DNA of 48,272 nt from an uncultured bacterium (GTDB lineage: Bacteria; Cyanobacteriota; Vampirovibrionia; Gastranaerophilales; Gastranaerophilaceae): positions 1 through 48,272 of the forward strand of contig CASFPN010000007.1 in NCBI GenBank assembly GCA_949296425.1, in the 5' to 3' direction. The notes under the pieces are model-generated. The model worked only from the letters and a program-made list of their open reading frames with translations. It made no database searches and was not told the DNA's origin. This document shows, piece by piece, positions 3,751 to 25,515 of this stretch. The position numbers and the translations under genes were made by a program. Each line of letters begins with the position of its first letter. Position 1 is the stretch's first letter.

Positions 3751-4518
3751 TTACCATTGTAAATCTGATTTATACAGATAATCCATATTTTCTTTAAATA
3801 ACACCCAAGCAGTACAACCAATCCCGTTCTCGCCCTGTTTTTCATTAATATTACAGTATTCACTCATAGGATGTCTTGTATCTTCTTTGCTTCCGATAGG
3901 GAATATACCGTCTTTTGTCAAATAAAACCAAAATATATCTTTGCCGATTCGGTTTGGACCTTTTTCACCATTAATATCAGTAGAAACAGTACCGCAGCCG
4001 TTTTTTAATATTGTACTAGTACCGTATTCTTGTGAGCAATCAGTTGAATGTATATAGTAAGTAACAACAAAAGTTCCGTCATTAAGTATAAAACCACCGG
4101 TAAGCGTATTATAAAAATCATCATAATTCCAATTACCGCTTCCGTCTAAAGAACTGATTTGAACTATCGGAAAACAATTATTGTCTCTAGACATACACTG
4201 TTTATATATATGAAGGTATGGCACTAATTTTGATAAACTATCATTATGAGCAGATAATAGTCCCCAGTTGTCCGGTGTCCCGTTTTCTTCTACAGCCATT
4301 TTAAAAGCCTGCGATAATACGGAATAAACTTTCTTTACTCTGTTAACAGTAACTTTTTCATTATATTTTTGCACGATAACAGGTATTGTTATTGCTGCAA
4401 CTACCCCAATAATACCGAGTGTTATAAGAACCTCAGCCAGTGTAAATGCAGCTCTGTGAACATTCTTTGACAAAACAAAGTTTGCAGTATCAGCAAATGT
4501 AAAATATTTTCTTAACAT
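3751..4518 (-). CDS. Type IV pilin-like protein (prepilin N-terminal methylation domain)
   Basis: A 255-residue prepilin or pseudopilin. After a long leader of 24 residues comes FTLAEVLITLGIIGVVAAI, the classic class III signal with Phe at +1 and Glu at +5 (residue 29), followed by a hydrophobic helix. The residue before the cut is Ala24 rather than the usual Gly. The C-terminal part has GEKGPNRIGKDIFWF, resembling the DxNGxKGPNxxGxDxF motif of many pilin-like proteins, plus several Cys. AAGGAG 7 bases before the ATG supports the long leader. It faces a small Xre regulator and has a near-perfect promoter overlapped by operator-like sites. Such minor pilin-like proteins would be processed by a PilD-type peptidase and placed in a pilus or secretion pseudopilus; the target is unknown. 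Confidence 0.88.
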   Translation of the reverse strand: MLRKYFTFADTANFVLSKNVHRAAFTLAEVLITLGIIGVVAAITIPVIVQKYNEKVTVNRVKKVYSVLSQAFKMAVEENGTPDNWGLLSAHNDSLSKLVPYLHIYKQCMSRDNNCFPIVQISSLDGSGNWNYDDFYNTLTGGFILNDGTFVVTYYIHSTDCSQEYGTSTILKNGCGTVSTDINGEKGPNRIGKDIFWFYLTKDGIFPIGSKEDTRHPMSEYCNINEKQGENGIGCTAWVLFKENMDYLYKSDLQW

Positions 4519-7577: not shown

Positions 7578-8360
7578 ATGAAAATTCTATTCAATTGCGT
7601 TAAATATAATCAACCGTATCAAAAACATTATACCTCGCCTTACTTTGGATCTAACAGCAGAATATACAAATCACACACAGGCAAAGAAATGGGAACGCTA
7701 ACTTTTCCTTTTCGGGATGACCTTGACTGGAAAAAGCTGACAGAATTTGAACTTAATCATTTTAAAAGTCATGAGAATGTAAATATTATACAGTTTGCCT
7801 CTTCAGACGGTTCTGAGGCATATTCAACAATTATTTCTCTGATTGAAAGCGGAAATAAAAATGTTGAAAAATTTTTCCCTATAAAAGCTTATGATATAGA
7901 TAAAGAAATCGTAAGAGCAGCAAACAGCGGAATGATTAATATCCACCCCGAAAATATGAAATATATAGAGCCGCACTGCAAGAATTTTTCAAAATATTTT
8001 ATCCCGAGCAGTGAAAAATTAGAAATACAAAATGACTTTTTTGACCTTATAAAAGTTCCTTACAAAACATACAGAGTATGTGATGAATTAAGAAAACGCG
8101 TAAAATTTAACCATGCAGACATGTACGATGTTATGTTTCAAATAGAAGACAAATCAAATACAATCTTGATGTGTCGCAATGTTTTAGGTTATTTTTCGGA
8201 AAGACAGGTCAAAAACACTATAGAAATAATTTCACGGAAACTGAAAAAGGGCAGCTTGTTTGTTATTGGGAAATTTGACAGAGATATGACACTTGTTGAA
8301 ATTTATTTGAAAAATAACAACTTTAAAGAAGTCTTAAAGAATGTATACATAAAAATTTAA
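7578..8360 (+). CDS. CheR-like SAM-dependent methyltransferase
   Basis: A 260-residue protein related to chemotaxis methyltransferase CheR, which methylates glutamates of chemoreceptors. Seen features: IIQFASSDGSEAYS (about 70-83) in the place of CheR motif I (normally ASCSTGEEPYS); IKAYDIDKEIVRAANSGMI (102-120) matching the CheR DxD..L..A..G segment; LMCRNVLGYFSERQ (about 197-210) matching FCRNVxIYF; and KKGSLFVIGKFD near 225-236, where CheR has GGxLxxGHSE. The usual N-terminal CheR helical domain seems short or absent. There are no chemotaxis genes in the window, so its substrate may not be a chemoreceptor. There is no Shine-Dalgarno before the ATG, and the gene may be read with manC. Its 3' end overlaps the opposite gene by 4 bases. 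Confidence 0.75.
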   Translation: MKILFNCVKYNQPYQKHYTSPYFGSNSRIYKSHTGKEMGTLTFPFRDDLDWKKLTEFELNHFKSHENVNIIQFASSDGSEAYSTIISLIESGNKNVEKFFPIKAYDIDKEIVRAANSGMINIHPENMKYIEPHCKNFSKYFIPSSEKLEIQNDFFDLIKVPYKTYRVCDELRKRVKFNHADMYDVMFQIEDKSNTILMCRNVLGYFSERQVKNTIEIISRKLKKGSLFVIGKFDRDMTLVEIYLKNNNFKEVLKNVYIKI

Positions 8361-9175
8361 AGTTTTATATTGGCCAGTTCCATATAATAACCTGAGGACA
8401 GCAATTCATCAAAACGTTTGACAGCACAAGGAGCAAGAGCCTGAGTCCATTCACGATCAAGATAAAGAGCTTCCACAAACCTTGCAAATAGTTCTGCAGG
8501 TTTTTCATAATATTTTTTGAACCTGTTTATACGTGCAGAAATCTTTGCTTGTTTTCTGGTATGTGATTTTAACCTGATATATGCAGCGAATGCTTCGGGC
8601 ATATCAAAATCGCGTTCAATATTATCAATTGTATAAATTTTTATATCACGTTTGAAAAATCCGCGTTCAATAACCTTTACCCTGTCATATTTTAAAAGGT
8701 AACGCGCATTTGACTTTTTAATATATTTATCAAACTCTTTAAATTTTTTTGAACGTTGAAATTTCGGATAATAAAATTTTATAATTTTATCATATTCATT
8801 AATTTTCTTTTTCACTCTTTCTTTATGTTCATAAAGTCTTACACATAAAGAATTTTCATCAACAAAATTTGTAACCCTTATAAGTTCATCGAAATAATTT
8901 TGCTCATCAGTTTTAAAAAGAGCACTTAATGTTCCGCCTGTTTTTGGCATATCTGGTTCAATCTTTGAATGAATATAATGAGCGAACTCATGTAAAAGAG
9001 TCGGCACAATTCGTTCTTCAGGTGTATTTTTTGAGATATCAATCCTGTTTTTCAAAAAAAATCCCTGATGCCCGCGGGCTTTTGTTGATGTGTGCACAAA
9101 AAGGCCCAGAGATTTAAAATATTCTATCAGTTCTTTTTTCCCGGGTTGAATTAGTTCCTGAATATAAATGCCCAT
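8357..9175 (-). CDS. Putative zinc metallopeptidase (HExxH) of unknown family
   Basis: A 272-residue protein from the ATG at 9175; a TTG at 9193 in the same frame is an alternative start. Residues 60-70 read LLHEFAHYIHS, giving the zincin motif HExxH (62-66). A downstream acidic segment, KPAELFARFVEAL near residue 225, could supply the third ligand, as in the gluzincin or ImmA/IrrE-like folds. The rest is Lys/Arg-rich and helical, with no signal peptide, so it is probably cytoplasmic. It starts only a few bases after the FAD oxidase gene and is probably co-transcribed with it. A TATAAT six bases before the ATG is too close for an ordinary leader. The peptidase call rests on the motif alone. 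Confidence 0.7.
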   Translation of the reverse strand: MGIYIQELIQPGKKELIEYFKSLGLFVHTSTKARGHQGFFLKNRIDISKNTPEERIVPTLLHEFAHYIHSKIEPDMPKTGGTLSALFKTDEQNYFDELIRVTNFVDENSLCVRLYEHKERVKKKINEYDKIIKFYYPKFQRSKKFKEFDKYIKKSNARYLLKYDRVKVIERGFFKRDIKIYTIDNIERDFDMPEAFAAYIRLKSHTRKQAKISARINRFKKYYEKPAELFARFVEALYLDREWTQALAPCAVKRFDELLSSGYYMELANIKL

Positions 9176-9197
9176 AAAAGAATTATACAACAATTTT

Positions 9198-10583
9198 CTA
9201 AAATATCTTATACGGATTTAAAATATTATTAGGATCAAATATTCTTTTAATCTTACGCATATAATCAAGCGCTGTTGAATTGATTACTTTGTGAATATAA
9301 GCGCGTTTTTGCGATCCGATACCGTGTTCGCCGGATAAAATTCCGCCAAGCTGAGCGGTCAAATCATATATTTCACTTTTTGCAAGCTTGTAGCGCCTGT
9401 ATTCATCTTCGTCTTTATAATTTATAGGGATTTGCGGATGAACACTCCCATCGCCCACATGCCCGACCATACAAACATCAAGTCTGTATCTTTCGCAAAT
9501 TTCACGAATCCCGAGAACAAGCTTTTCCAAATTTTCACGGGGAACAATAACATCGTCTGTTGTGACATTCGGTTTTAACTTTGCGCAGGCACCCATTGAA
9601 GCTCTGCGAGCTGTCCAAATTTTTTCATATTCTTCATTATTATGCGAAACCTGAACAGCCGAAGCTCCTGAATTATCCAATATACCGGTTATAACCTTTT
9701 CCTGATATCTCATGGAAGATTTAAAACCGTCTATCTCTATGACAAGTGCAGCGTCTTTGTCTGTTAAAAGTCCTGCCGGATAAAATTTTTCAACTGTTAA
9801 TATTGCATTTTTATCCATAAAATCAATTGTTGCAGGGAAAATCTGCTGTTCAATAATTGAATTCACAGCATGCACAGCATCTTTTACCGTATCAAAATAT
9901 GCCATAATAACTTTTTTGCTCTCCGGTTTGGGAATAAGTTTCAAAGTTGCCTCAACAACTATTCCAAGAGTTCCTTCAGAACCGACAAACAAACTGCCAA
10001 GATTATAGCCGGTTGCATTCTTAATAGTGTTTGCACCTGTCTGCAATATTTCACCGTTTGCCATAACCACTTTTAAATCAATAATATAATCCTTTGTTGT
10101 GCCGTATTTGAAAGATTTCGCGCCGCCTGATGACTGTGCGATACTGCCTCCTATAGTTGATACTGTGAGATTTGAAGGATCAGGTGGATAAAAAAGACCA
10201 AGTTTTTCAACCTCTTTTTGAAAACAGCCCAGCACAACACCCGGCTGTACAACTGCTGTCATATTTTCTTTATTAATCTCTATAATCTTGTTCATTTTGG
10301 AAAAATTTAAAATTATTCCGCCATGCTGAACAACACATGCTCCTACAACGTTTGTTCCGGCACCTCTGCAAATAACAGGGATCCTGTATTTATTTGCAAT
10401 TTTTACAACCGATTGAACTTCTTCAACCGTTTCAACAAAAACTACAGCGTCAGGAAGACTTTCAATCTTTCTGACATTAGTGGCATCCTGCGCATAGGCA
10501 TAGCGTTCCTCTAATGTACCGAGGACATTAAATGAGGGTAAACTTTTCTTTAAGTCCGAAATTAACTTATTCTTCATCAACAT
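9198..10583 (-). CDS. FAD-linked oxidase, glycolate oxidase GlcD / D-lactate dehydrogenase family
   Basis: A 461-residue flavoprotein of the VAO/PCMH type that oxidises a 2-hydroxy acid such as D-lactate or glycolate. The FAD-binding-4 domain spans about 40-180 (PVICRGAGTNVVGAC, then PSNLTVSTIGGSIAQSSGG). The FAD-oxidase C domain follows, with GHVGDGSVHPQIPI and the closing GEHGIGSQKRAYI (about 425-437). No GlcE, GlcF or Etf gene is adjacent, so its electron acceptor is unknown. The start overlaps the end of the upstream 2041-residue gene by 17 bases (ATG at 10583, another at 10577), which suggests translational coupling. The zincin gene follows after about 22 bases. In a fermenting anaerobe, D-lactate oxidation is the likeliest role. 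Confidence 0.9.
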   Translation of the reverse strand: MLMKNKLISDLKKSLPSFNVLGTLEERYAYAQDATNVRKIESLPDAVVFVETVEEVQSVVKIANKYRIPVICRGAGTNVVGACVVQHGGIILNFSKMNKIIEINKENMTAVVQPGVVLGCFQKEVEKLGLFYPPDPSNLTVSTIGGSIAQSSGGAKSFKYGTTKDYIIDLKVVMANGEILQTGANTIKNATGYNLGSLFVGSEGTLGIVVEATLKLIPKPESKKVIMAYFDTVKDAVHAVNSIIEQQIFPATIDFMDKNAILTVEKFYPAGLLTDKDAALVIEIDGFKSSMRYQEKVITGILDNSGASAVQVSHNNEEYEKIWTARRASMGACAKLKPNVTTDDVIVPRENLEKLVLGIREICERYRLDVCMVGHVGDGSVHPQIPINYKDEDEYRRYKLAKSEIYDLTAQLGGILSGEHGIGSQKRAYIHKVINSTALDYMRKIKRIFDPNNILNPYKIF

Positions 10584-13500
10584 AAGATGTCAACTTTTCT
10601 ATATTACTTCCAAGTCCGGATAACATTTTTTCAATCTTATCCACTTTCCTATTTAACACCATATCATCTTTTTCTTCAAGTGTCGACAAAATTTTATCGA
10701 GTTTCATTTCAAGTGCGTCAATACGTTCTTCCTGTTTGTCAAACCGCAACTGCAGCTCATCAAGTATCCTTGCTTTATCGGGAATAACACCGCGCAATTC
10801 CTCTATATATTCTTTAACAGTAGAGATTTCTGATGTTTTATCGGTTATCGCCGAAATATTTTCTGTTGCGGAATCAATCCATTCACCAAGATACATCATT
10901 ACCTGATGGAATACTTTGTCTGCATTAGCGGAAGCAACGGCCATTGATTGAATATTGTCAAGCTTTTTTTCCAGTCTTTGTGAAATTTGTGTCTTATCAA
11001 GTTCATTAATTCTGTCTTCCAAGCGGTATACAAGACTGCTAAAATTATTTAAACCTTCATTCAAAGCTTTATAAGACTCGTCAGATGTCAACAATAGCTT
11101 GTTAGTACGTGAACTTATACTTAGAATATCTTCGTTAAGCTTTTCAATATCCCCTTTCAAATCAACAATCTGATCCTGTGTCAGCGATGATTCTAAACCT
11201 TCTATTGAATTTACGATTCTTTTTATATCTTCTGATAACCCTTCAAAATCCGTTCCTGCAGATATCTGATTCATTGCAAGTCTTAATTTTGCAATATCAG
11301 ATTCGACATCCTGCAATGTATATGAATAATCAAAATCATCATTTGAGCTTGCAATTTGATGTAACTGCGTCTGTACTTTAATAAGATTTTCTTTAATTTC
11401 ATCAGTCTTTTCTTCGACAAAATCTTTAATTTCTTCCGTTTCTTCCACAAAAGAAACCTGATCAAACAGCGAAACAAGAGCATTCATTATTGAATCTTTG
11501 ATATCTTCGGAATTTTTTTCCAAATCCAAATTATCAAGTTTTAGCAGCAAATCCCGAAGATACTTATCAATCGCTGCCGCTTTCTCATCAGAAGCAGCTT
11601 CAAAATATTTTCTCTGTTCAAATATCAAATCTTTTATATCATCTATTTCTTCTGATATATCAAAATCATTTGAATCAGCGGCAAGAATATCAACTTTGTC
11701 ATGCAAAGCTGCGAGCATTTCAGAGACTTTGCTTTCAGATTGAACAACTCCTGTTAATTTTTCATCAACACCCTTAATTCCGGATATCATTGAAGCTGCT
11801 CTTTCTCTGGCATCACCGGCAATATCATCAAGAGAACTTAAAATTTCATCAGTGTTGCCTGACATTGCGAGAATATCGACTTTAGTATTTAGTCCTTCAA
11901 GCAATTCTTTATCTTTATTATTTTCAACTGATGCCTGAATATAAGACTTAATACTTTCATTTAAAGCCGATAAATCAAGAGAGATTGAATTCCCTTTTTC
12001 TTCAATGCTGGATTGAATATCATCGAGTTTATCCAATTTTAAGGACATTTTATCAAATGATTCAAAATCTTTATGGTTATTTCCCATTAAATCAATATGA
12101 GCTTTTAAATCTTCCAAATACTCATCAAACTTTTCTTCAATAGAATGATTAATTATACCGGTGTTTTTCTCTAAACTGATATTGAGTAATTCAAGATTCC
12201 CTTCAATTTTGTCGCAAACAGCTTCCTCAATTGTCGAAATTTTGTTATACGTTTCCCTATAAGCTTGTTCAAGTCTTACAACCGACTCGGATGCGGAGGC
12301 TAATCCACCGTTGATATCAACACTGAAATTAGTAAATGAAGTTTCCAGCTGCGACTTCAGCTCATTGATAACTTTGTCAAGCTCAAAACCTGATAATTCC
12401 TCTATACTTGTTTTCACAGGTTCAAATGCTCTTATAATTTCTTCTGTTTTATGTTGCAAAGCATCCGATATATCTGTACTAACAAGACCTATTTCATCTT
12501 TTAATCCAGAAATTTTATCTTTAATACTCTCAAGTAAAATTTTATTATTTCCGGATTCGTCACCTGACTTAATTTCATCCAGAGTGTTTAAAATATTAGA
12601 GAATCTGTCATCCATCGGAAGCAAAGTATCCTGCAGCAATGTTTCAACATTTTGGACTACCGAAGCATCAACCGTTTTGATATTATTAATAATATTTTCA
12701 ATACCGGTATCTATAACAGACATTGATTCCGTATATTTTTCATCGGCCGAAATCTTAACGGATTTGATAACATTACTGATTGCTGAAAGCTCTCCTTTTA
12801 AATCGGTTATTTCTTCAAGTGAAGAAGCAATTTTGGCTTCCGTATCAGATGTACTGTTTTCAACTATTTGAACAAATTCTGACAACTTACCCTGGAGAAT
12901 TTCCATTCTCTCCTGATATTCTTCATGACCGTGCGATAAAGCAGCTTCCAAATCCAGAAGCTTTTCTCTCAATGTATTGTCATTTGAAGACCTTTCGTTA
13001 TTTGCATTTGCATCCAATTCTGAAATATATATTTTTAAGCTTTCGATTGCATCATTTATCTGTGCTCTGAAACCTTCCAAATTTTCCGAAATAATTTTCA
13101 ATTGATTAAACTGCAATTGTGCATCTTCTTTTATTTGCTGAACAGAATCCTCATGAAGAACTCTCATATCATTAGAGAATTTTACAAGTATTTCTTTTAA
13201 AGATATAAGATGATTGATTACTTCTGAAGATACATTTTCCGACAAACCGTCAATTTTATCAGATACAAGATTTACAGCATCATAAATTCTGTCTATATAA
13301 CTTTGTGAGAAATTATGAATTTCATTTTTTAACTCATCAACTTTTTCAGATATTCCCTCAATATTCGTAAATATATTTTGAGCATTTTCTCTATTAATAC
13401 TTTTTAAATCATCATTAAACGAATTCACAGCTGATAAAATATTTTCCATAGACAGCTTTAAACGGTCAAACCCGGAAGATACATTAAATGTATATGTGTC

Positions 13501-16500
13501 GTTCTTTTGTGTAAAATCATCTTTCAGAGAATTTATTTCATTAATAACATCTGACAAGGAAAGCTTCAAATCATCCAAACTAACATTTACATCATTTTCC
13601 AATTTTTCTCTGATTTCATCTTTTGCAAGATTAAGTTCCTCTGAAACTTTTTCCAGAATCTCGGAAGGATTTTGAGATAATAAATCTCTAACGAACTGAA
13701 TATTTAATAAAAGATCGGAAAGATCTGTATTAAGCTTTTCAAAATTTTCCTTTGCCAAATTGTCACTGTCATCTGCAACTGCCTCTAATTGAGATTTCAA
13801 AGAATTAATTTCATTTACTATATTTTCATAATTCATTTTTGAATTATTTTCAAAAGATGTTCTGATTTCATCTATTCTACCGGCTATATTTTCAAACTCA
13901 AACGAATAATCAAATGAATTTATTCTGTCCAGAATTGATTCAATCTGCTCTCTGTTAGTATCTGTATTCACCTGTAAAACACTTGCGCCGTCAAGTATTT
14001 TTTGAATAAATTCACCTAAGTCGCTTCTGAAACTTTCAAAATCTTCAACGGTTACAATTTTGGGGAACATATCCTCAAATTTTCCAATCTCAGCTGACAT
14101 AACTTCTTTATTTTCAGCAGAAGAATTTTCAATTATATCTTTTAAAGAAGAAATTAAACCGGAAAACTCCTCAATCTTTGAAAGAATAACTTCGGAATTG
14201 TTATTTCTTTTAATATCTTCATTCAAAAGATCTATTTTTTCGCAAAGACCTGAATAGTTGCTACCTGATGAATTTTCAAACATTGAAGCTAAGTCATCAA
14301 TTTTAGAGGATAACTGTTCCAAATCATAAGAATAATCCTGTTTTTCTAAAATTTCAAGTTTATCCAGAATTATACCGACATCCTCTTTTGAGGCCGAAGC
14401 ATCAAGAATATTTGAAAATAAAGTTGATAATTCAGCATTTTTTGCGTTTATATCGTTTATTGATGACAAAATAAAATTAGATGTTGATATAATATTAGAA
14501 ATCTGCATCTTAATTTCTTCGCTCTGATCGGAGAAATTAAGTGATGTTATCTTATCCAAAACATTTTTAACTTCATCTTGAACTGATAAAACAGATGATT
14601 CAAAAGCATGCGACAAAACTTCAATTGACTCAAGTTTTGAAGTTAACTTGTCCTGACTGTCAGAATGATTTGTTGATATAGTATCGTTTATTTCTCTAAT
14701 ATAATCTTTTATCCCAAAAATATTTTCTAAAATATTTTGTTCAAATACTTCAATATCCGAAGACAAAACTGTTTCAACCGATTTGATATCCTTGGACAAA
14801 TTTTTTAAAGATTCCAATTTTTGCTGCTCGCCCACAGAATTTGACTGAACCCAAAAATCCTGCTGTTTTTGCATTTCTTCACTTAATTTTTGCGAAAGAT
14901 TATCAAGAATATCTTTTAAATTCTCAAAATTTAACCTTGAACTACCGGTCAGTGTTTGCTCAACACTGTCAATTTTAGAAGATACTTTTTCAACAGTATC
15001 AAGAATTTTTGAAGAATTTTCCAAATCAGACATGGCCGACTGCTTAAATTCATCCCTTAAAGTTTCAACAGAAGTTGAAACATCATATACACCGGCAAGA
15101 ATTTTATCTGCATTTTGTTTCGCAGTTGTGTTAAACTCACTTTGCAAATTGTTAACGGTTTGAGTAATCTCCTCAATATATACTTTTACCGCTTCATAGT
15201 TAGAATTTGCATTATCTCTTGCGTCATTAATTAAAAGCGAAATATCATCACATACTTTATTCAGCAAATCTGTTATTTGAACAGGTTCAATTTTACTGCT
15301 GTCCGCTATTAATGTTTTCAAACCGGAAAGCTCATTTATAATGTCATTTATCCCCGATTCAAGCTGCTTAATATTATGTTGCGAAGAAACAAATATATCA
15401 TCATTTTGTGAAATAATTTCACCTTTAACGGTTTGCAGAGCAGATATAACATCCCCCAAACCGGCTTTTAAATCCCCGTAATCATCCTGAAAATCAGATG
15501 ATATTCCATTTCTTAAAGACAAAACTTCATTTGAAATATTTATTATACTGCCTGATATTTCATCCAATTTGTCGCCGTAATCTATACTAAGAACACTAGA
15601 CAGATTTTTCAAAACATCATCAATACCGCCTTTTAATGATGAATAAATTTCCTGTCTTTTTTCATCAAGACCTGCAAAACTTTTGTCAAAATTCTGTGCA
15701 AGACCGGCAATTTCTCCGGACAAATTTGAATAATTTTGTCTGGCACCTTCTTCAAAAGACTCTTTTAAATCATTAATCCTGTTGATAATATTTTCAAAAT
15801 CATCTCTGAAATCCAGAGATTTAACTGTTGTAAGGATATTTTCTATTCTTTCCGTACTGTAAGAAAGCTCAGTATTTAAAGCAGCCGAATTGTCTATAAT
15901 TTTTTGTACAAAATCTGCCAAATCTTCTTTAAATCCCTTAAAATCAGATTCAGTCACAATATTTTCAAAAGAATTTTCAAGACTTCCAAGTTTTTGTACA
16001 AGCCCTGCCGCAGCATCCGATGAAGACGCCACAATTATTTCACGTAAGGAATTAAAAATATCCTCAAAATGTGAAATTGAGGACGGCAATACCTTTAAAT
16101 CAGCAGAAATATTTTCAAGACCGTTTTTAATAAGAGCCAATTCATTTGAATTGTCAAGACTGCTTATTGCTGAAGAAGTTTCAGATAATTTATTATTAAT
16201 ACTTTTGAAAGAATCATCCAGATTTGAATTTATTTCCGCAATATCAGAAGAAAGTCCGTTGATTAATGAAACAGTTTCATCCTTACTTAAAGAATTTTCA
16301 CTAATACTTTCCAATCTATTTCCCACACCGTCAAGAATACTTTTTTGAAAAGCAATGTCATTTGAAAAATTACTGATATTTACACCCAAGGCATTAAATA
16401 AATCGCGCAGCTCCGATGTCTTTGCGACCGCTGAATTTTCCTTTTCAAAACGGTTAAACATATTTTCTATTTCATCAAACTTTTCAACCGTAATACTGTG

Positions 16501-16692
16501 TTTTTCATCAACTGATTTTTTTAGTTCCGATATATAAACCCTGATTAAATCCGTAGCTTCACTGTCATCAGCCATCATATCAAGTTTATTATTTATACCT
16601 GTTAAAACTCTCTCAACACTTTGAACATTATTTTCATTTTCTTCACGCATTGAGTTTATAATTTCAGCAATTTCATCAACTGTTAATGCCAT
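10567..16692 (-). CDS. Giant (2041 residues) coiled-coil protein with internal duplication, unknown function
   Basis: An uninterrupted 2041-residue frame, mostly heptad-like helix rich in Ser, Asp, Glu, Asn, Lys, Ile and Leu, with almost no Cys, Trp or Pro. It has no signal peptide, membrane segment or catalytic motif. Two segments of about 115 residues are clearly related: about 213-330 (DFKGFKEDLADFVQKIID..) and about 846-965 (DFESFRSDLGEFIQKILD..), an offset of about 634 residues. Many shorter units resemble LxxISxxIxxINxxL. The last 100 residues hold shorter, more charged heptads (KMLSGLGSNIEKLTSYVDEE end). It begins the minus-strand unit with the FAD oxidase and the zincin. There is a weak Shine-Dalgarno (GAAGAAAGTG). 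A scaffold or cytoskeletal role is possible but unproven. Confidence 0.9.
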   Translation of the reverse strand: MALTVDEIAEIINSMREENENNVQSVERVLTGINNKLDMMADDSEATDLIRVYISELKKSVDEKHSITVEKFDEIENMFNRFEKENSAVAKTSELRDLFNALGVNISNFSNDIAFQKSILDGVGNRLESISENSLSKDETVSLINGLSSDIAEINSNLDDSFKSINNKLSETSSAISSLDNSNELALIKNGLENISADLKVLPSSISHFEDIFNSLREIIVASSSDAAAGLVQKLGSLENSFENIVTESDFKGFKEDLADFVQKIIDNSAALNTELSYSTERIENILTTVKSLDFRDDFENIINRINDLKESFEEGARQNYSNLSGEIAGLAQNFDKSFAGLDEKRQEIYSSLKGGIDDVLKNLSSVLSIDYGDKLDEISGSIINISNEVLSLRNGISSDFQDDYGDLKAGLGDVISALQTVKGEIISQNDDIFVSSQHNIKQLESGINDIINELSGLKTLIADSSKIEPVQITDLLNKVCDDISLLINDARDNANSNYEAVKVYIEEITQTVNNLQSEFNTTAKQNADKILAGVYDVSTSVETLRDEFKQSAMSDLENSSKILDTVEKVSSKIDSVEQTLTGSSRLNFENLKDILDNLSQKLSEEMQKQQDFWVQSNSVGEQQKLESLKNLSKDIKSVETVLSSDIEVFEQNILENIFGIKDYIREINDTISTNHSDSQDKLTSKLESIEVLSHAFESSVLSVQDEVKNVLDKITSLNFSDQSEEIKMQISNIISTSNFILSSINDINAKNAELSTLFSNILDASASKEDVGIILDKLEILEKQDYSYDLEQLSSKIDDLASMFENSSGSNYSGLCEKIDLLNEDIKRNNNSEVILSKIEEFSGLISSLKDIIENSSAENKEVMSAEIGKFEDMFPKIVTVEDFESFRSDLGEFIQKILDGASVLQVNTDTNREQIESILDRINSFDYSFEFENIAGRIDEIRTSFENNSKMNYENIVNEINSLKSQLEAVADDSDNLAKENFEKLNTDLSDLLLNIQFVRDLLSQNPSEILEKVSEELNLAKDEIREKLENDVNVSLDDLKLSLSDVINEINSLKDDFTQKNDTYTFNVSSGFDRLKLSMENILSAVNSFNDDLKSINRENAQNIFTNIEGISEKVDELKNEIHNFSQSYIDRIYDAVNLVSDKIDGLSENVSSEVINHLISLKEILVKFSNDMRVLHEDSVQQIKEDAQLQFNQLKIISENLEGFRAQINDAIESLKIYISELDANANNERSSNDNTLREKLLDLEAALSHGHEEYQERMEILQGKLSEFVQIVENSTSDTEAKIASSLEEITDLKGELSAISNVIKSVKISADEKYTESMSVIDTGIENIINNIKTVDASVVQNVETLLQDTLLPMDDRFSNILNTLDEIKSGDESGNNKILLESIKDKISGLKDEIGLVSTDISDALQHKTEEIIRAFEPVKTSIEELSGFELDKVINELKSQLETSFTNFSVDINGGLASASESVVRLEQAYRETYNKISTIEEAVCDKIEGNLELLNISLEKNTGIINHSIEEKFDEYLEDLKAHIDLMGNNHKDFESFDKMSLKLDKLDDIQSSIEEKGNSISLDLSALNESIKSYIQASVENNKDKELLEGLNTKVDILAMSGNTDEILSSLDDIAGDARERAASMISGIKGVDEKLTGVVQSESKVSEMLAALHDKVDILAADSNDFDISEEIDDIKDLIFEQRKYFEAASDEKAAAIDKYLRDLLLKLDNLDLEKNSEDIKDSIMNALVSLFDQVSFVEETEEIKDFVEEKTDEIKENLIKVQTQLHQIASSNDDFDYSYTLQDVESDIAKLRLAMNQISAGTDFEGLSEDIKRIVNSIEGLESSLTQDQIVDLKGDIEKLNEDILSISSRTNKLLLTSDESYKALNEGLNNFSSLVYRLEDRINELDKTQISQRLEKKLDNIQSMAVASANADKVFHQVMMYLGEWIDSATENISAITDKTSEISTVKEYIEELRGVIPDKARILDELQLRFDKQEERIDALEMKLDKILSTLEEKDDMVLNRKVDKIEKMLSGLGSNIEKLTSYVDEE

Positions 16693-23880: not shown

Positions 23881-25515
23881 TTATTGTTTAAACTCTTTAC
23901 CGCCGACTATTCTCAAATGTCTGTTACTTCCTTCACCAATTGATGTACTTTTCATGTTGTGCTGTTCAACAAGTTCATGCTGCAGTTTTCTTATATGCTG
24001 ATTTTGCGGGGTAAGTTCAACATGTTCTGCACCTGCAAGAATTTTATTAATCGCGGCTTTGGCCTCATCAAGGGCACGTTCTGCATCATCATAATAACCG
24101 CATAAGGTTTCCGAAGCTTCTGTTATCTGCAAAGCTTCTTTCAAAACCTTTTGAATTTGGGCCATAGAATTTGTTTTTACGTAGAAAATCTGCAGTCTGT
24201 AATCATTTGCAATGCTTAAGACTTTTGCTCCGCCCTTTATAAAATTTTTATGAGCAATTACAATATCTGCTTCATCAAGGTTTCTAGTAATTTCCGCATT
24301 CAAATTTAAACGCTCAATTACTTTTTCAACAATTGTTCTTGAAACGGCATACAAATAAATCTTTTTAAAACCTTTGACCTCATCAACATATTTTTGTCTT
24401 GAAAAGCTAAACTTTAAACTGTCAGTATTATGTTCTGCAATATTTTTGTCTATTCTGTTAATTTCCTTTGGCAGATCACTTAATGTAGGCTCAGTTTTTT
24501 TAGGAGTATCCTGCAGAGGCATTTCTGCTTCATCATAGGATTTGTCAACTTTTCGGATTTCCGGTCTTATCGGCCATCCGCGGAGAATATAATCAACTGC
24601 TTCTGCGGTATTTTTATAAACCGCAAGCGTATTTCTGTCTAAGATTTCAATAACAACATCAAATGTGGGCTGTTTTTCTCTTTCAAGAACAGTTTTTTGA
24701 GAAGCTCTGCGTTTTGCTTCATCATCGCCTAAAGTAACTGATTGAATGCCGCCGACAAGATCGGATAACGTAGGGTTTTTAATCAAATTTTCAAGGCTGT
24801 TTCCATGAGCAGTTGCAATAAGCATAACACCGCGTTCTGCAATTGTACGTGCTGCCTGTGCTTCCTCTTCTGTACCGATTTCATCGACTACAATAACTTC
24901 CGGAGTATGGTTTTCAACAGCTTCAATCATAATATCTTTTTGGAATTGCGGCTGAGTAACCTGCATACGTCTTGCATGCCCTATTGCAGGGTGAGGAGTA
25001 TCGCCGTCGCCTGCAATTTCATTTGATGTATCGACAATTACCACGCGTTTGCCCAATTCATCAGCAACAAGTCTGGAAATTTCACGGAGTTTAGTCGTTT
25101 TTCCAACGCCAGGACGTCCGAGAAACAGAATACTTTTGTTCATCATGCAAATATCTTTGATACAAGCAATAGTTCCGGTTACAACTCTCCCTATACGACA
25201 TGTCAGGCCAATGATTTTTCCCTGCCGGTTTCTTATTGCACTGATTCTGTGGAGCGTTCCCGGTATTCCGGAACGGTTGTCTGATGTAAAATCCTGAATA
25301 CGGCTTGTGATATAGTTAATATCCTCGTCTGTAACAAATTCATCCCCGAGATACTCTATTTTTCCGCCTGCGTGACGGATTTCAGGGGTTCGGCCGATAT
25401 CCAAAACAATTTCTATCACATCTTCCATTTTTTCGTAAGTAATATGTTTTTTTACTTTTTCAGGAAGAACTTCTGTCAATCGATCTAAATCATTCTGAAA
25501 TTGTAGGTTGCTCAT
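23881..25515 (-). CDS. Ycf45-like P-loop ATPase with C-terminal R3H domain
   Basis: A 544-residue ATPase of the family found in cyanobacteria and plastids (Ycf45) and related to the SpoIIIAA group of secretion-type ATPases. Walker A GRPGVGKT is at 133-140, Walker B VIVVDE at 207-212, and ATAHGN in the sensor position near 254. The middle part (300-370) is a charged linker. Residues about 490-540 form an R3H single-stranded nucleic acid-binding domain (IRKLQHELVEQHNMKSTSIG then GSNRHLRI). The exact role is unknown; binding of RNA or DNA coupled to ATP hydrolysis is inferred. It is a single-gene unit with a 114-base leader containing a hairpin. Its presence supports cyanobacterial ancestry. Confidence 0.92.
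   Translation of the reverse strand: MSNLQFQNDLDRLTEVLPEKVKKHITYEKMEDVIEIVLDIGRTPEIRHAGGKIEYLGDEFVTDEDINYITSRIQDFTSDNRSGIPGTLHRISAIRNRQGKIIGLTCRIGRVVTGTIACIKDICMMNKSILFLGRPGVGKTTKLREISRLVADELGKRVVIVDTSNEIAGDGDTPHPAIGHARRMQVTQPQFQKDIMIEAVENHTPEVIVVDEIGTEEEAQAARTIAERGVMLIATAHGNSLENLIKNPTLSDLVGGIQSVTLGDDEAKRRASQKTVLEREKQPTFDVVIEILDRNTLAVYKNTAEAVDYILRGWPIRPEIRKVDKSYDEAEMPLQDTPKKTEPTLSDLPKEINRIDKNIAEHNTDSLKFSFSRQKYVDEVKGFKKIYLYAVSRTIVEKVIERLNLNAEITRNLDEADIVIAHKNFIKGGAKVLSIANDYRLQIFYVKTNSMAQIQKVLKEALQITEASETLCGYYDDAERALDEAKAAINKILAGAEHVELTPQNQHIRKLQHELVEQHNMKSTSIGEGSNRHLRIVGGKEFKQ

Follow-up and report, generated by a model that had tools for sequence, protein, structure and literature searches.

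A giant predicted coiled-coil rod protein confined to the order Gastranaerophilales as a candidate scaffold in a lineage without MreB

Crescentin and intermediate-filament-like proteins are rods with conserved ends, and in that way of working they bear comparison with the giant protein described here, which gave no sequence match to them and is mostly of the straight hendecad type, not heptad-based. Among coiled-coil scaffolds the closest in design are Scy and FilP, which with DivIVA are polar scaffolds of Actinobacteria, and whose rods have heptads at the N-terminus followed by a hendecad-type coiled coil (PMC9858780). Most Actinobacteria lack MreB, and polar growth is the mode of bacteria that do without it, Actinobacteria and Rhizobium among them (PMC4460556). 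The giant protein shares with Scy/FilP a predicted long cytoplasmic rod of this hendecad type preceded by N-terminal heptads, a likeness in how the proteins may work and not one of homology; unlike them, it is low in alanine, is longer, and has a conserved C-terminal domain and modules of 87 residues. The DivIVA/FilP/Scy superfamily is marked by a GYDxxEVD motif ahead of the heptad coiled coil (PMC9858780); this DivIVA-like motif is missing from the giant protein, in which no GYD occurs, and the DivIVA model PF05103 has no match in the protein or in the window's genome. From the same phylum, the cyanobacterial proteins Fm7001, All4981, Syc2039 and HmpF are coiled-coil-rich and cytoplasmic, and some of them form filaments and affect morphology (PMC7002697). 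The giant protein has no sequence relation to these four past chance coil matches, the HmpF model matching weakly in 5 of 65 family members, and its family is confined to another class and order. Bactofilin (PF04519) likewise has no match in the giant protein, which is predicted to be all-helical, or in the window's genome.

The window analyzed here is a stretch of 48,272 nucleotides from an uncultured member of the family Gastranaerophilaceae (contig CASFPN010000007.1, assembly GCA_949296425.1), whose genome is 2.0 Mb in size and 99.95% complete. On its minus strand, at 10567..16692, lies a gene with an ATG start that encodes 2041 amino acids and is present in a single copy in its own genome. 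An earlier note, made from the sequence of the window, had described one uninterrupted frame of 6.1 kb, without a signal or membrane segment, in whose last codons a FAD oxidase gene begins, and each of these observations was borne out: the frame comprises 2041 codons, no 19-residue window in the whole protein exceeds a Kyte-Doolittle value of 0.96, and the gene for the GlcD-like FAD oxidase (9198..10583, minus strand), a neighbor and not part of the feature, overlaps the end of the giant gene by 17 nt. Comparison with relatives at 62-68% protein identity revealed 287-350 changes at codon position 2 versus 893-969 at position 3 (489/287/897 at positions 1/2/3 for one relative at 68% identity), and because this substitution pattern is that of protein-coding DNA, we regard the giant frame as a real gene. 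The encoded protein contains 0.3% proline and 4.9% alanine and has a net charge of -207.

With a profile made from the C-terminal 420 residues, matches were obtained in 180 of 192 Gastranaerophilales genomes, in 38 of 45 genera; in a separate comparison all 32 genomes of the window's own genus had a match. The earlier note had named lack of the protein in the proteomes of relatives as counter-evidence, and at the genome level the relatives do carry the gene. A divergent-member profile added weak matches in further genomes of the order, and several divergent loci carry recognizable motifs, e.g., YTLSDVESDIAKIR, RTNKLI and AEWIDSAG. In G127, one of the profile-negative genomes, the FAD oxidase gene is missing as well, and this hints at a gap in the assembly. 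Among the complete members retrieved, lengths lie between 748 and 2867 aa, and across the family it is the first ~60 and the last ~390 residues that are conserved. In the window protein the former (MALTVDEIAEI...ELKK) open an N-terminal region of 200 residues (16093..16692, minus strand), and the latter constitute a C-terminal domain (residues 1649-2041; 10570..11748, minus strand) that is predicted to be all-helical and harbors an invariant Trp 1938 in YLGEW together with the motifs YTLQDVESDIAKLR and SISSRTNKLLL. The family signature emerging from the alignments and the order search, namely DVESDxAKLR, RTNKLLL and GEW motifs in the C-terminal domain in combination with a coiled-coil rod, is present in the window protein. 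In an alignment with one relative, identity is 74-93% in the final four blocks of 100 residues and 43-75% in the middle; within most of the genus the end domain is 65-88% identical and the middle less conserved. No credible homologue was found in 79 genomes from elsewhere in the class, where only three matches came near 1e-4, and a phylum-wide search of sampled Cyanobacteriota added two weak matches, none credible. The weak out-of-order matches (G303, G332; G205, G209, G230) were rejected as short or coil-only, the G332 locus being devoid of the family motifs. As judged from these sequence comparisons, the gene founds a new family restricted to the order Gastranaerophilales, and within the libraries and open-access papers searched the family appears undescribed.

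The earlier note had also reported a duplicated 115-residue segment. The repeat is real, since in self-comparison the best 115-residue window at an offset of 634, beginning at residue 215, has 44/115 identities whereas the best at 1865 other offsets has 26/115, and the ungapped diagonal at this offset has a score of 338, where shuffled sequences reach 66 at most; it is not, however, a simple two-copy duplication. A profile built from the two related segments located three module copies in the window protein, all on the minus strand: one at residues 235-320 (15733..15990, 112 bits), a weaker one at residues 724-812 (14257..14523, 45 bits), and one at residues 870-954 (13831..14085, 104 bits), 634 residues from the first. 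In the homologue at locus L052 of genome G026, residues 243-788 hold six tandem copies at a spacing of 89-103 residues, and the number in other relatives goes down to one. What had looked like a duplicated segment is an amplifying module of about 87 residues. Its number changes fast within the genus, from six in the L052 homologue to one elsewhere.

Hydrophobic residues recur along the whole protein with a period of 3.64 (power 5.9, shuffle maximum 1.6), and the family median is 3.63; given that an undistorted helix has 3.63 residues per turn (PMC9858780), the chains would form a nearly straight, hendecad-type coiled coil. The period stays at 3.60-3.70 through most of residues 200-1480, which include two predicted straight coiled-coil rods at about residues 300-700 (14593..15795, minus strand; period 3.61-3.63) and 940-1480 (12253..13875, minus strand; period 3.60-3.68), and is heptad-like at both ends, with 3.48 in the first 200 and 3.52 in the last 180 residues. 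Phase demodulation revealed coherence over ~200-300 residues (about 300-560 and 940-1280), with breaks around residues 220-300 and 760-930, close to the modules. The mean 240-residue coherence of 16.8 was reached in 0/200 block shuffles preserving pieces of 28-45 residues (maximum 13.3), while the single best window was matched by 3/200. Because the mean lies above every block shuffle, the pattern favors long continuous rods rather than chains of short helical hairpins. The low alanine content, counted over the whole protein and not over core positions, runs against an alanine-rich hendecad dimer core; taken with the bulky hydrophobics of the hendecad-like core, it points by a published packing argument (PMC9858780) to an oligomer larger than a dimer. 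One continuous helix would measure 2041 x 0.148 nm, or about 300 nm, which is an upper bound given the breaks; the "hundreds of nanometres" expected earlier therefore hold as a ceiling. AlphaFold2 models of the C-terminus (pLDDT 69, pTM 0.29) and of the N-terminal 420 residues (pLDDT 51, pTM 0.28; given no weight) are all-helical at low confidence and do not settle the choice between a rod and a folded bundle.

Across the window's genus, and in part of the family to which it belongs, the giant gene precedes the FAD oxidase gene, which adjoins it only there, and points away from an operon for a 2-oxoacid:ferredoxin oxidoreductase. Gene order at this locus is shared by essentially all genomes of the genus that were retrieved with flanking sequence, and the 17-nt overlap is kept in most of the genus. 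Elsewhere in the order the giant gene adjoins genes for uracil-DNA glycosylase, glucose-6-phosphate isomerase, CutA or KsgA (named from sequence). No neighbor is conserved throughout the order, for which reason the overlap implies no shared function, and none points to cell-wall growth, which counts against the scaffold role discussed below; a functional link through a shared operon with the FAD oxidase or the oxidoreductase was rejected on the grounds that neighbors change across the order. At three loci that have no other synteny, a gene combining Spore_III_AA-like, PTPase-model and R3H domains (window 23881-25515; L049 10143-11720; L193 13656-14999) lies within ~2 to 7 kb of the giant gene and is perhaps its ancestral neighbor. 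Type IV pilin-like genes of the GFxxxE type (window 3751-4518, and frames at varying positions in several of L033-L058) look as if repeatedly inserted around the locus. At 7578-8360 the window encodes a 260-aa protein with a CheR-type SAM-binding domain that is 45-61% identical among same-genus genomes, where several of its neighbors reach 80-97%. The adjoining gene at 8357-9193, conserved beside the FAD oxidase gene in many genomes, encodes 278 aa that fall clearly into no family, the only matches being weak ones of the SprT/M78 metalloprotease-like kind.

A scaffold, cell-shape or polarity role had been suggested for the giant protein in the earlier note. The scaffold part has fared well, in that periodicity, composition, the lack of a known domain and the order-wide conservation of the ends describe a probably cytoplasmic, enzyme-free and rod-like protein suited to such work; the case for cell shape or polarity is circumstantial. 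We infer, with about an even chance of being right, that the window protein is the founding member of an order-restricted family of giant cytoplasmic coiled-coil rods acting as a scaffold, either for polarity or of a kind resembling intermediate filaments. Bundling of its chains would give rigid rods, with the modules as the joints between them; the conserved ends would attach to one another or to fixed partners, and these rods would then serve as the scaffold. The same conserved ends, combined with a middle free to vary between 748 and 2867 aa, partly through gain and loss of modules, and with a single-copy gene, would also fit a variable-length tether or spacer that neither forms filaments nor sets shape, its ends holding two unrelated complexes apart, e.g., with one end on a pole or membrane complex and the other on the nucleoid or on the base of a flagellum or pilus. 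We regard this tether as possible but doubtful, as the neighborhood suggests no partner and conservation is strongest in a helical domain of 390 residues that has no recognizable binding fold.

No known enzyme or transporter domain, the other counter-evidence named earlier, was found by profile, PDB sequence or fold searches. Pfam, NCBIfam, PHROGs and PADLOC returned only coiled-coil cross-matches to the giant protein, under the curated cut-offs where such exist, and no enzyme, ATPase, receptor or secretion domain. Matches to SpiroCoCo, SMC/ASRP, LmuB, ZorA, tape-measure and apolipoprotein models, below the cut-off where there is one, are coil-only and mutually inconsistent, and were set aside as cross-matches. 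For example, SpiroCoCo (NF047515/NF047514), named in NCBIfam as a coiled-coil protein, matches weakly with its C-terminal model in 56 of 65 members, level with SMC and Rad50 cross-matches, and at 18.8 bits versus a cut-off of 125 homology is unsupported; a literature search on SpiroCoCo or Melainabacteria coiled coils found nothing relevant. Most PDB sequence matches fell in the coiled coils of viral fusion proteins, of SNAREs or of GCN4 fusions and were uninformative, and a fold search with the C-terminal AlphaFold2 model retrieved nothing at E <= 0.001.

The top coiled-coil profile cross-matches, to an archaeal SMC-related protein, SMC and Rad50, could be taken to indicate a coiled coil that organizes the nucleoid or chromosome in the manner of SMC-type arms without the ATPase. 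These matches are, however, coil-only and far under the curated cut-offs (41 of 300 bits), no ABC-type ATPase head was found in Pfam or NCBIfam searches, and the strongly acidic net charge disfavors DNA binding, which makes such a function quite improbable. We consider it very improbable that the giant protein lies on membranes or lipid droplets as an amphipathic protein of the apolipoprotein or perilipin kind, for although the periodicity is of the 11-residue type and the Pfam apolipoprotein model (PF01442, Apolipoprotein A1/A4/E) matches six stretches (E 4e-19), the score of 69.4 bits is below the gathering threshold of 90, this model is a common cross-match for repetitive amphipathic helices, and the negative charge disfavors anionic membranes. 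That the long rod, with weak PHROG tape-measure matches of about 21 bits, serves as the tape measure of a phage tail or as an adhesin, whether secreted or on the surface, is scarcely credible for a vertically inherited, order-wide gene syntenic with housekeeping genes, with no family member found on viral contigs and no signal, membrane anchor or enzyme domain in the protein.

The intermediate-filament-like or polarity scaffold gains circumstantial weight as a determinant of shape because the order is without MreB and yet at least one of its members, a termite Gastranaerophilales bacterium imaged by FISH, is described as a short rod of 1.0 x 0.5 um (PMC5877343). Genuine MreB was found in 0 of 192 Gastranaerophilales genomes sampled, in which the best PF06723 match reached 84.5 bits and the matching frames were typically ~615 codons long. 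The match in the window's own genome is an Hsp70 (PF00012, 564 bits), and those remaining in the order are Hsp70 cross-matches only. By comparison, a strong MreB match (E <= 1e-83) was obtained in 77 of the 79 genomes sampled elsewhere in the class, all but G236 and G253, and Vampirovibrio has been reported to have mreB and ftsZ (PMC4451040). Loss of MreB and the giant protein co-occur as one event at the base of the order, which is statistically one observation and cannot alone prove a link. Such a scaffold would most likely organize growth or poles in a lineage that lost MreB; that it took over work from MreB is speculative, and we think it unlikely, though worth stating, that the order lost MreB at its base and keeps a rod shape through the giant coiled-coil scaffold, with growth organized by neither actin nor DivIVA.

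The cell biology of the Gastranaerophilales, which are gut bacteria, is barely characterized, and an order-wide loss of MreB with at least one rod-shaped member makes one ask how cell shape is determined there. The predicted giant rod, which is encoded by a single-copy gene, has strongly conserved ends and occurs in this order alone, offers a candidate scaffold definite enough to be put to the test, and its module arrays provide a natural length series on how rod length matters. If the proposal is true, it would constitute a previously unknown way, dependent on neither actin nor DivIVA, for a bacterium to organize its growth.
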